From positions 1-40,221 of IMG/VR virus record IMGVR_UViG_3300044675_005140: DNA of 40,221 bases; one strand, 5' to 3'. This DNA is from a virus. The number at the start of each line of letters is the position of its first letter. Positions within the stretch are counted from its first letter, which is position 1. Shown here piece after piece: positions 11,521 through 39,442 of the stretch. The translations under genes were made by a program, and so were the position numbers. Under the pieces are notes generated by a model. It was not told the DNA's origin and searched no databases. It saw only the letters and a program-made list of their open reading frames with translations.

Positions 11521-11766
11521 CTACTTCGTTTTACCACTAGCAAGATTGGCAAACATCCTTGCTTGTTCAGTAGCCATCTTTTTTACATCAGCCATGAGTT
11601 TAGCATCTTTCTGAATCTCTGCTGCTCTTTTTAATGTAGACATAGCAGATTCTACTTCCCATTTTCTCATTTCTGCTTTGTTACCTCCCATAATAGAAAT
11701 ACCAACTGAAGAAGATGATTTCTTAGCTGGAGCTTTTCTAGTTGTTGTTGTTTTTCTTACTGCCAT
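11521..11766 (-). CDS. Small basic helical protein (81 aa)
   Basis: Residues 1-20 are a Lys/Arg/Thr-rich tail (MAVRKTTTTRKAPAKKSSSS), then a mostly helical part with alternating charges (MRKWEVESAMSTLKRAAEIQ, KLMADVKKMATEQARMFANL). This resembles a DNA-binding tail attached to a helix that could dimerise. No named family recognised. Two-nt gaps on both sides show tight operon packing. Confidence 0.65.
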   Translation of the reverse strand: MAVRKTTTTRKAPAKKSSSSVGISIMGGNKAEMRKWEVESAMSTLKRAAEIQKDAKLMADVKKMATEQARMFANLASGKTK

Positions 11767-11768
11767 GA

Positions 11769-12107
11769 TTATGCTTTTTTAACCCTTCTCCCCATACCTA
11801 CTCTAGACTTCTCAGCTTTCTTAGCAGCTAGTTTAGAAGGAGTTAGTTCATATTTGGTTTTTGGTGTTTTACTAGAAACCCTTTTAGTAGGGCGGCAGTA
11901 TTCATTTTTACCACCAGCCCCACAAGGTTTTCCTGATTTTGTATCTTGCCATTTCTCAGCTTGCCATCTTTTAAGTTCAGTACCCTTCTCTGTTTTCCTA
12001 ACTGTACCAGATTTCTTCCGGCACTTAGCAATAGCTTGAGAAGCTCTTGCTGATGGAAACACAGCATACCGTGCTTTTACACTATGATAACATGCATCTT
12101 TAGGCAT
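11769..12107 (-). CDS. Basic DUF5872-like protein (112 aa)
   Basis: The middle reads ELKRWQAEKWQDTKSGKPCG, then CRPTKRVSSKTPKT and a Leu/Lys-rich end. The order RWxxExWxDxxxGKPCG ... CRPxKRVSSKTPKTxxEL is one I recall as DUF5872, a small domain of phages and large eukaryotic viruses. An N-terminal extension (MPKDACYHSVKARYAVFPSA) resembles another small phage motif (CYxxVKxRYxVxPSAxASxAxxKC). Several Cys residues could bind zinc. Function unestablished; membership of the basic cluster suggests nucleic-acid contact. Confidence 0.75.
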   Translation of the reverse strand: MPKDACYHSVKARYAVFPSARASQAIAKCRKKSGTVRKTEKGTELKRWQAEKWQDTKSGKPCGAGGKNEYCRPTKRVSSKTPKTKYELTPSKLAAKKAEKSRVGMGRRVKKA

Positions 12108-34662: not shown

Positions 34663-34711
34663 AACACCTTATACTAGTTCAAAGGGTGAAAATAATACTA
34701 GTTACTTCCTT

Positions 34712-34727
34712 ACTGTTAGCAAACAGT
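34712..34727 (+). ncRNA. Compact hairpin ACTGTT/AACAGT
   Basis: ACTGTT (34712-34717), loop AGCA, AACAGT (34722-34727). No T-run follows, so probably a structural hairpin, not a terminator. Confidence 0.4.
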
Positions 34728-34732
34728 GACAA

Positions 34733-34922
34733 ACCTGTGGGGCTACTATTGGGTTCTATATTTCTCCTGCAAAGAGACTTATAGTGCTACATATCATTTG
34801 CAGTGATATAATCCAAAGTTAGTGCAGACTTAAAAATCAGGTATTTTACATATAGCATAATGATAAAGCTATGTGAGTTTAATTTAAACTATTTCGTCTT
34901 ATAGTATAGCAGAGCCCCTGGT
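34733..34922 (+). ncRNA. Candidate multi-branched RNA domain (190 nt)
   Basis: Closing helix: ACC (34733-34735) and GGGGCT (34739-34744) with AGCCCC (34913-34918) and GGT (34920-34922), unusually GC-rich for this DNA. Enclosed: CTGCAAA/TTTGCAG (34767-34773, 34797-34803), CATATAGC/GCTATGTG (34849-34856, 34868-34875, one G-U) and the palindrome AGTTTAA-t-TTAAACT (about 34877-34891). No gene fits. Not matched to a known RNA family. Confidence 0.4.
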
Positions 34923-37354: not shown

Positions 37355-38266
37355 ATGAGAAATTTATCTACAAAAGGACTTTCTATGTCCCAAGCACAAT
37401 CAATCTCTAACCTTTGCAACCAAAATGCACAAGAGATTCAACGAGAATTAGAATCTTATAACAACTGTACTAAGACTATTACAGTTGGTAGGAAAGATTA
37501 TATTCTCCAAGAAGGATCACCTATTCCAGGTGATATACTTGCTAAGTTGAAGAACAAAGGTGATCTTCATGCTTGTCAAGCTTTCCTTATGGAAGCTATC
37601 AAGAGTAAAGAATTTGAGTTACAAAGATTGAGAAATCTAAAACCAGATTTTTCACATCTTCAAGAGCCAGTTAGACAGTATGCTCCTGACTATGATGTTC
37701 TACATGATGTAGAAGAATCATGGGGATGGAGACAATTGTCTGATGCTGAATACTCAGAGTATCTACAAGCAGAAGCTATGGCTTCTCACTTAGGTCAATT
37801 TATCCATAAAGGTGGTAAGTTGACTCAATTGAGAAGAGATCTTCCTAATGTAGCTAGCCTTGAGTGGTTTGAGGTTGAAGATGGTAAAAGAACTCCGGTT
37901 CAAATTACCAAACATCACCATCCTTCTGCTTTAATGCAATGTCATGAAGATATTGCTGAAGAGCATAGAAAGTATGAGCAACGTGTAAACTATTACAAAG
38001 CAAAGGTTAAGAACCTTGTTAGTGATGAGAATGCACGGGTTCAGAAATCAAATGCAGACCAAGCTGCAATATTTCTTAAGCTTGAAAAAGAGCTAAATGA
38101 GAAATATTTGCTAGAAAGGGATGCATATAATGGTGAGGTACTCAGACTTACTATGGAATTTAATGCTCAACGAGAGTTGGACATTAAAGCTGCTGCAGCA
38201 TTGAGAATCAATGTTGATCCTAGGTTTCAGCATGTAATTGACATGTTCATTACAACTGATAACTAG
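37355..38266 (+). CDS. Helical protein with coiled coil (303 aa), unrecognised
   Basis: Strongly helical and charged. N-terminal SMSQAQSISNLCNQNAQEIQ, RELESYNNCTKTITVGRKDY; middle HDVEESWGWRQLSDAEYSEY, LQAEAMASHLGQFIHKGGKL; C-terminal coiled coil (DIAEEHRKYEQRVNYYKAKV, FLKLEKELNEKYLLERDAYN). No enzymatic motif. It could be a scaffold- or DNA-binding partner protein. Ends before a strong hairpin terminator at 38281. Confidence 0.6.
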   Translation: MRNLSTKGLSMSQAQSISNLCNQNAQEIQRELESYNNCTKTITVGRKDYILQEGSPIPGDILAKLKNKGDLHACQAFLMEAIKSKEFELQRLRNLKPDFSHLQEPVRQYAPDYDVLHDVEESWGWRQLSDAEYSEYLQAEAMASHLGQFIHKGGKLTQLRRDLPNVASLEWFEVEDGKRTPVQITKHHHPSALMQCHEDIAEEHRKYEQRVNYYKAKVKNLVSDENARVQKSNADQAAIFLKLEKELNEKYLLERDAYNGEVLRLTMEFNAQRELDIKAAAALRINVDPRFQHVIDMFITTDN

Positions 38267-38280
38267 TAAACTAATTGGGT

Positions 38281-38320
38281 GAGTAAGGGATAAGCACAAG
38301 CTGATTCCCTTGCTCTTTGT
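38281..38320 (+). terminator. Intrinsic terminator after 303-aa gene
   Basis: GAGTAAGGGA (38281-38290) pairs with TCCCTTGCTC (38306-38315), ten pairs with one G-U, then TTTGT. The short T-run makes it moderate. Confidence 0.65.
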
Positions 38321-38596
38321 ACTAAGTAACAGAAATTTTTGATATAGACTGTGGTTGATATCCACTTACAAGAAAAATTAATTTGATAAATTAATTCCAC
38401 CGCTTCTCTTCAAACTTATAAAAACTGAGATAGAACTCATCATCAAACAGGTTACTCCAGGAGTAGATACTCCATACAAGGGAGATAACTGGTTGGTACT
38501 AATGAGACTTAGTATTTGTATTTGCCTTTGTAGAAGAGAAGGTCTTTGTCTTAGTATTTGAATTTGGCTTTAGCTATATATTTCTGTTACTTAGTA
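38320..38596 (+). ncRNA. Long-range-closed structured RNA (277 nt)
   Basis: Closing helix of 17 perfect pairs, arms 38320-38336 and 38580-38596. Inside: GTGG/CCAC (38351-38354, 38362-38365); AATTAATTT/AAATTAATT (38376-38384, 38388-38396); CTTCTCTTC/GAAGAGAAG (38403-38411, 38533-38541). The last encloses CTCAT/ATGAG (38436-38440, 38502-38506), GTTA-CTCC/GGAG-TAAC (38451-38458, 38481-38489) and GGAGT/ACTCC (38460-38464, 38469-38473). None cross. It occupies the 38267-38628 gap, after a terminator and before the 82-aa gene, so it is either an independent RNA or a very long structured leader. Confidence 0.6.
38508..38573 (+). repeat. Imperfect direct repeat, 24 nt x2
   Basis: 38508-38531 and 38550-38573 share CTTAGTATTTG, then a T/A change, ATTTG, a C/G change and CTTT, 18 nt apart. 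Both lie in the 3' part of the structured RNA. Confidence 0.6.
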
Positions 38597-38628
38597 ACTA
38601 ATTTATGTCTTACTTATTATTTTAAAAT

Positions 38629-38877
38629 ATGAATATAGAAGATCTTGAAAAATCATTACAAAGAGCACAAGAAGAACTGTACATGCTTCGATATGCTAAA
38701 TGTGATCCAGAAATGTACTCAATGGCAAAAAGTGACATTGAGCATAGAATTATGTGTATTACTGATATGATTGAACACAAAAAGAAGTACAACAAATTTA
38801 TTAATCGAGTTAAAATTATACTTGCTATTATATTGGTAGGTGTAGCAATGATGGTCTATGATTTTATTTCTAGGTAA
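38629..38877 (+). CDS. Coiled-coil membrane protein (82 aa)
   Basis: N-terminal helix with heptad-like pattern (MNIEDLEKSLQRAQEELYML, MYSMAKSDIEHRIMCITDMI), then a C-terminal membrane segment (about 58-78, VKIILAIILVGVAMMVYDFI). Tail-anchored topology. Overlaps the next gene by 20 nt. Follows the 277-nt structured RNA. Could be an inner-membrane sensor or exclusion protein; no family recognised. Confidence 0.6.
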   Translation: MNIEDLEKSLQRAQEELYMLRYAKCDPEMYSMAKSDIEHRIMCITDMIEHKKKYNKFINRVKIILAIILVGVAMMVYDFISR

Positions 38878-39353: not shown

Positions 39354-39427
39354 AGTCCCATAGCTCAGCTGGATAGAGCAACTGCCTTCTAAGCAGTAGG
39401 TCACAGGTTCGAATCCTGTTGGGACTA
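39354..39427 (+). tRNA. tRNA-Arg, anticodon UCU
   Basis: Canonical cloverleaf: acceptor AGTCCCA (39354-39360) with TGGGACT (39420-39426), D-arm GCTC/GAGC, anticodon arm ACTGC-CTTCTAA-GCAGT giving anticodon TCT, T-arm ACAGG-TTCGAAT-CCTGT. All stems are perfect. Discriminator A, no encoded CCA (next bases CTA). It reads AGA, a codon used often in this AT-rich phage, and probably supplements the host's Arg tRNA pool. Confidence 0.97.
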
Positions 39428-39442
39428 CTAAAAATTAAAATT

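Follow-up and report, generated by a model that had tools for sequence, protein, structure and literature searches.

A structured RNA with 6-base periodic arrays, linked to the gene of one protein family in crAss-like and other large phages

We identified in phage DNA a structured RNA of about 330 nt that represents a new family, since its sequence and structure are common to independent phages and its helices have undergone compensatory changes. Its place is always immediately downstream of the gene for one protein of no known family, suggesting that RNA and protein act jointly in the infected cell. The window, that is the whole stretch of DNA analysed here, is a 40,221-nt linear fragment (IMG/VR virus record IMGVR_UViG_3300044675_005140) which belongs to the Crassvirales, as it encodes a crassvirus major capsid protein (Pfam PF23898, 8.9e-30, over the cut-off); terminase and portal genes are also present. 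That the element is a conserved structured RNA element of the + strand is, in our view, virtually certain. The RNA is undescribed, being absent from Rfam, from cultured-phage records (INPHARED) and from open-access papers.

A preliminary description of this region, made from the sequence of the window, had delimited a domain at positions 38320-38596, closed by 17 perfect pairs that, with a 9-pair inner helix, it took to be far beyond chance. The 17 pairs, our helix P2, are indeed all Watson-Crick, with arms 243 nt apart. No other perfect 17-mer inverted repeat whose arms lie within 400 nt of each other occurs anywhere in the window, and 200 dinucleotide shuffles of its sequence produced no such repeat. 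In the comparison with shuffled controls that had been proposed as a check, the interval folds at -73.4 kcal/mol (z = -4.0), a value reached by none of 200 shuffles. However, its limits were drawn too small. The domain extends from 38272 to 38604 (Table 1), with a folding energy of -95.2 kcal/mol and a better z of -5.7 (none of 100 shuffles as good), because the extension takes in hairpin P1 and an outer helix, P0, that closes the domain around it. Counted in the window sequence, the RNA begins 6 bases past the stop codon of the partner gene, pairing in P0 starting at 38273; the preceding sequence shows no evident promoter. P1 had earlier been read as a terminator hairpin upstream of the domain; it belongs instead to the RNA itself, lying within P0, and is conserved, as are its apical hairpin and loop; a terminator scan accepted no T run and scored no site there.

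Table 1. Positions of the RNA, its helices and arrays, and the partner gene in the window
Feature	Position	Strand	Basis or remark
Partner gene, 303 aa	37355..38266	+	of no known family; upstream of 289/291 RNAs
Whole conserved RNA domain	38272..38604	+	~330 nt; fold z -5.7
P0, 5' arm	38273..38278	+	outermost helix, encloses P1 and P2
P0, 3' arm	38598..38603	+	covariation and fold of the extended domain
P1 hairpin	38281..38315 (38281-38290 / 38306-38315)	+	covariation
P1 apical hairpin (AGCACAAGCU)	38293-38302	+	conserved
P2, 5' arm of the 17-bp helix	38320..38336	+	fold, covariation, inverted-repeat uniqueness
P2, 3' arm	38580..38596	+	fold, covariation, inverted-repeat uniqueness
P3 variable region	38337..38402	+	length and sequence vary among phages (alignment)
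P4, 5' arm	38403..38411	+	preceded by near-invariant CCGC
P4, 3' arm (GAAGAGAAG)	38533..38541	+	followed by GUCUUUG
P5 hairpin, UGAG-AUAGAA-CUCA	38426..38439	+	92% paired, nearly invariant
P6 hairpin	38442..38497 (38442-38450 / 38489-38497)	+	loop length variable
Array A, GACUUAG UAUUUG UAUUUG CCUUUG	38506..38530	+	6-base period, invariant length
Array B, UCUUUG UCUUAG UAUUUG AAUUUG GCUUUAG	38543..38573	+	6-base period, invariant length; CUAUAU next

We aligned 109 distinct RNAs by sequence, without fitting them to the structure. The proportion of paired positions was 87% in P1 (45-56% in slid controls), 90.9% in P2 (37-48%), 90.4% in P4 (56-65%) and 97.9% in P6 (9-48%), while the three aligned pairs of P0 were 96% paired and the P1 apical pairs (G-C/A-U/U-A) were formed in every sequence (109/109). 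At the named column pairs, slid controls did not exceed 65% for any helix, except for a competing pairing of P5, in which ACUGAG pairs with CUUAGU at 38508-38513; this was seen as a slid control and is also about 92% paired. It is mutually exclusive with the local P5 hairpin, and as both fit, either may form. When the arms were swapped between phages, the native arms paired better in 60 of 61 comparisons for P1, 97 of 97 for P2, 68 of 68 for P4 and 63 of 82 for P6; there was no difference for P5, which is nearly invariant and therefore shows little covariation. We also compared the column pairs with a tree-based null, in which each column evolves on its own along a FastTree tree (40 replicates) and which is heavy-tailed and no substitute for R-scape. 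Six column pairs exceeded all null values, each of them a pair of the structure: two each in P1 and P6, one in P2, and one in P0 (columns 39-384, which are A-U, U-A, G-C or G-U in 109/109).

Compensatory changes thus support P0, P1, P2, P4 and P6 on the + strand, and the helix cells contain G-U far more often than A-C (390 vs 81), so that it is the + strand transcript that folds. The preliminary description had stated that its domain would be refuted if relatives lacked compensatory changes in P2, and it came through this test because they do show such changes. Its nine-pair inner helix corresponds to P4 and is real by the same comparison. Of the six further inner helices that it had listed, P4 is accordingly conserved while some others belong to the single-sequence fold without being conserved; likewise, the conserved P6 is not the same as in the minimum-energy fold of the window.

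The 3' arm of P4 is flanked by two U-rich arrays, A and B, that stand out by their fixed length. Array A is 25 nt long in 109/109 sequences, and the stretch of array B, taken as the 45 aligned nt starting with GGU at 38541, is free of insertions and deletions in all 109, whereas the other loops of the RNA differ by tens of bases. Both arrays repeat a U followed two bases on by a G (sometimes an A) every six bases, and the bases between these drift. In array B the phase-1 U is present in 105 to 109 of the 109 sequences in each unit, and the phase-3 G in 107, 107, 100, 87 and 64 of them, the remainder being nearly all A. When we tested the periodicity of G, six was clearly the strongest period in both arrays; by an information measure it was strongest in array B only. 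Coding sequence was considered for the arrays, six bases being two codons, and was rejected by inspection, since the P4 3' arm between them varies by one base and in-frame stop codons are present. A fixed 6-base register of this kind is, as far as we know, an unusual RNA design. Fixed length and fixed phase where there are no pairing partners point to contact with a protein, and the register can be tested by binding assays.

Short triplets strictly phased in unpaired RNA recall the RNAs bound by TRAP, a likeness that concerns only how they might work. TRAP-binding RNAs carry evenly spaced, unpaired (G/U)AG triplets that are read by a ring protein, classically 11 triplets with a period of 5. 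The arrays described here differ in having a period of 6, the motif U-N-G, and four plus five units arranged around a helix. In the 20-kb surroundings of the RNA in nine phages, the partner protein was the only gene cluster common to all, and no second common gene was found there as a candidate for a TRAP-like protein.

The RNA family occurs in at least 291 loci of public viral contigs, which gave the 109 distinct sequences after thinning. A search with the upstream protein yielded 42 relatives, and those with readable downstream sequence carry the same RNA; a scan with an RNA motif only (ACTGAGATAGAACTC) yielded 119 stretches, the majority of which proved to be members when checked for the other conserved motifs, and protein-profile scans added relatives (80 loci out of the more than 200 matching per viral scan). 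The RNA profile matched 295 of the 325 sequences collected at that stage. A covariance search, which had been proposed at the outset as a check, was successful in viral contigs: a model of the 3' half of the RNA, run on 18 large contigs, found a single copy in every one (E <=5e-18). What looked like a second copy in some phages proved to be an insertion between the gene and the RNA, and the pattern matches L337, L340, L343, L346 and L348 were discarded as unrelated sequence with neither the RNA profile nor the protein.

The earlier statement that the RNA fits no known family holds. Positions 38200-38720 gave no Rfam match at gathering score, and at E <=10 only chance-level matches (E 1.2 or more), none of them credible. 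The GOLLD model (RF02032) was unmatched there at gathering score, although the same search finds GOLLD in the phage contig L335, and the RNA was matched by none of the covariance models for ROOL, tmRNA, RNase P, ribozymes and all other families of Rfam 15. DNA and protein searches of cultured phages (INPHARED) with two different queries returned no match, so that we found no cultured phage isolate that carries the RNA; nor did we find a description of it in open-access papers on crAss-like phages and large phage RNAs.

The partner gene is located upstream of the RNA on the same strand in 289 of the 291 loci, and the remaining two are at cut contig ends, where the contig stops 97 and 200 nt upstream. 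Loci fetched through the protein have the protein by construction, and for this reason the two scans driven by RNA motifs alone matter here; the second of these, which used the array motif, gave seven new true RNAs, all seven with the protein gene. From stop codon to RNA start the median distance is 14 nt. However, the gap exceeds 60 nt in 33 loci and reaches a maximum of 752 nt, and this tolerance of insertions of 170-752 nt indicates that the RNA forms a separate unit. Two loci (L035 and L036) have a gap of about 170 nt, with a non-coding insert of about 150 nt that has no Rfam match, and in L100 and L048 a reading frame sits at this place.

The gene-RNA pair is present in crAss-like phages and also in contigs of 270-434 kb (sizes of large contigs are the IMG/VR values as given), and the large contigs have no other neighbouring genes in common. 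When the terminase and capsid proteins of the window were searched against 15 large contigs, 13 gave no match and two did. Among the largest, G001, G002, G003, G004 and G008 (348-434 kb) carry the pair with no match to the window capsid or terminase. The pair has thus been kept across phages that are otherwise unlike, and its retention beside quite different neighbouring genes makes the case that it is important to infection. The distances between RNAs agree with those between the proteins (rho 0.69, 0/500 permutations), an agreement that shared descent alone would also give.

The partner protein has no convincing relative in Pfam, PHROG, NCBIfam, PADLOC or the PDB sequences, and the sole relative that these searches gave, A0A6J5N6M1, is uncharacterised. 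Many positions are invariant among 41 aligned sequences, including histidines 145, 151, 187, 188, 197 and 204. An AlphaFold2 model (pLDDT 85.5) is mostly helical with two beta-hairpins. Comparison of this model with PDB folds gave no informative match, the VIA-align Z values being below 8, which is uninformative for a helical protein. In the model, the plan helix, beta-hairpin, long helix occurs twice (residues 11-93 and 130-242), and the two segments could possibly represent an internal duplication.

Could the RNA serve a gene that follows it? The preliminary description had offered a giant leader as one of two readings, and a small gene does start 25 nt past the RNA domain in the window. However, what lies 3' of the RNA differs among phages (small genes without relation to one another, tRNAs, a group I intron, GOLLD or a terminator-like hairpin). 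This speaks against a leader that serves any single gene, and as relatives have no conserved downstream gene and often a tRNA, terminator-like hairpin or intron comes next, we regard a leader or riboswitch as almost certainly wrong. The other reading, a stand-alone non-coding RNA, has fared better, as the insertions tolerated before it make it probable that the RNA is not merely part of a message. A cis-acting 3' element of the partner-gene message, at which the protein itself, a nuclease or a host factor would bind and control stability or translation (autoregulation), would equally yield the constant linkage, and would fit with the short median distance, the constant strand and the fact that the RNA was never found without the gene. 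Nevertheless, it has to accommodate the long insertions, one type of which is another reading frame, and a binding site hardly needs so large an RNA with several independent domains and fixed arrays; we hold it to be unlikely, if by no means negligible.

The arrays could also bind a host factor instead of the partner protein. The RNA would then be a decoy, or sponge, whose U-N-G arrays titrate a host RNA-binding protein while the neighbouring protein is a co-expressed helper, and nine evenly spaced and strictly phased repeats of a short motif are indeed reminiscent of other RNAs with repeated binding sites. Decoys of the CsrB type, though, vary in their number of sites, whereas site number and spacing never change here, and the obligatory partner gene would be left unexplained, so that this is quite an unlikely reading. 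We give a slim chance to an RNA-only homo-oligomer, assembled like GOLLD and ROOL with the protein a mere neighbour: the setting in phage tRNA islands is the same, with GOLLD itself about 1.3 kb downstream in L335, but the RNA is about half the size or less, one gene always adjoins it, and Rfam gives no match.

Our preferred reading is that the RNA and the neighbouring protein act together as a ribonucleoprotein, for which we consider the chances even. The RNA would be co-transcribed with the upstream gene, probably cut out of its message, and would work in trans with the protein of about 303 residues. P0, P1 and P2 may form a three-way base that clamps the RNA ends, and P4, P5 and P6 a second folded core, while the arrays, with their four plus five units in the 6-base register, would present unpaired, evenly spaced contact sites, occupied most simply by several copies of the partner protein or by one long protein surface. 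The site of action would be the infected cell, often beside a phage tRNA island, and from this location we would guess that phage or host tRNA, or translation, is acted upon. The full picture is that of a new kind of two-part phage ribonucleoprotein machine. Its RNA of ~330 nt would carry a gapless protein-binding track phased at 6 bases, its protein, with six invariant histidines, would be dedicated to that RNA, and the two would make up a cassette common to phages between 100 and 434 kb in size, perhaps acting on tRNA or translation. We advance this tentatively, with less than even confidence.

We know of few large structured phage RNAs, namely GOLLD and ROOL, and of none with a known job. 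GOLLD (RF02032) is likewise a structured phage RNA near tRNA islands, of unknown function, and both RNAs occur in L335; however, there is no match in sequence or structure, and the RNA described here is about 330 nt long and always has its partner gene, which makes the partner directly testable, unlike in GOLLD or ROOL. The type III toxin-antitoxin system ToxIN also pairs a gene with a structured RNA containing repeats. Its RNA stands before the gene and has repeats of about 36 nt, whereas ours follows the gene, with 6-nt repeats, and the partner protein gave no convincing match to ToxN-like proteins or to any known toxin or defence family. OLE, which to our knowledge is not a phage RNA, resembles the present case as a large RNA with a dedicated protein, a partnership that is putative here, and differs from it in that our RNA has no Rfam match. 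OLE RNA is a large bacterial RNA that has dedicated Oap proteins (see PMC12286853). Many GOLLD RNAs exceed 800 nt, and ROOL is encoded by phages near tRNA islands, with its function unknown and no protein partner identified (PMC12286853). The RNA described here is, like ROOL, encoded by phages and often near tRNA islands, but it matches no Rfam family, is about half the size of ROOL and is always adjoined by one gene.

Many relatives are found within tRNA islands (L329, L335 and L336 have 18-27 tRNAs over about 20 kb), and others, including the window's own clade, have one tRNA nearby or none. The window's only tRNA is a tRNA-Arg (TCT) at 39354-39428, about 750 bases past the RNA. In L335, a 122-kb phage contig, a group of tRNAs and then one with anticodon TTA come before the partner gene and the RNA, which are followed by a group I intron, GOLLD and further tRNAs; GOLLD is at 11643-12057 (306 bits), about 1.3 kb 3' of the RNA with the intron between. 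The anticodon-TTA tRNA-like gene, which would read the stop codon UAA, was seen at 8958-9035 in L335, 4571-4648 in L148 and 8984-9061 in L332; in two or more phage groups it immediately precedes the partner gene. The viral contig L339 has a tmRNA gene at 2569-2988 (Rfam, 75.5 bits), about 2 kb before the partner gene. Finally, a Hatchet self-cleaving ribozyme (RF02678, 78-82 bits) is located about 3.5 kb before the RNA, at 34706-34842 (+) in the window, 11502-11638 in L334 and 119-256 in L035, and is conserved in the window's crAss-like clade.
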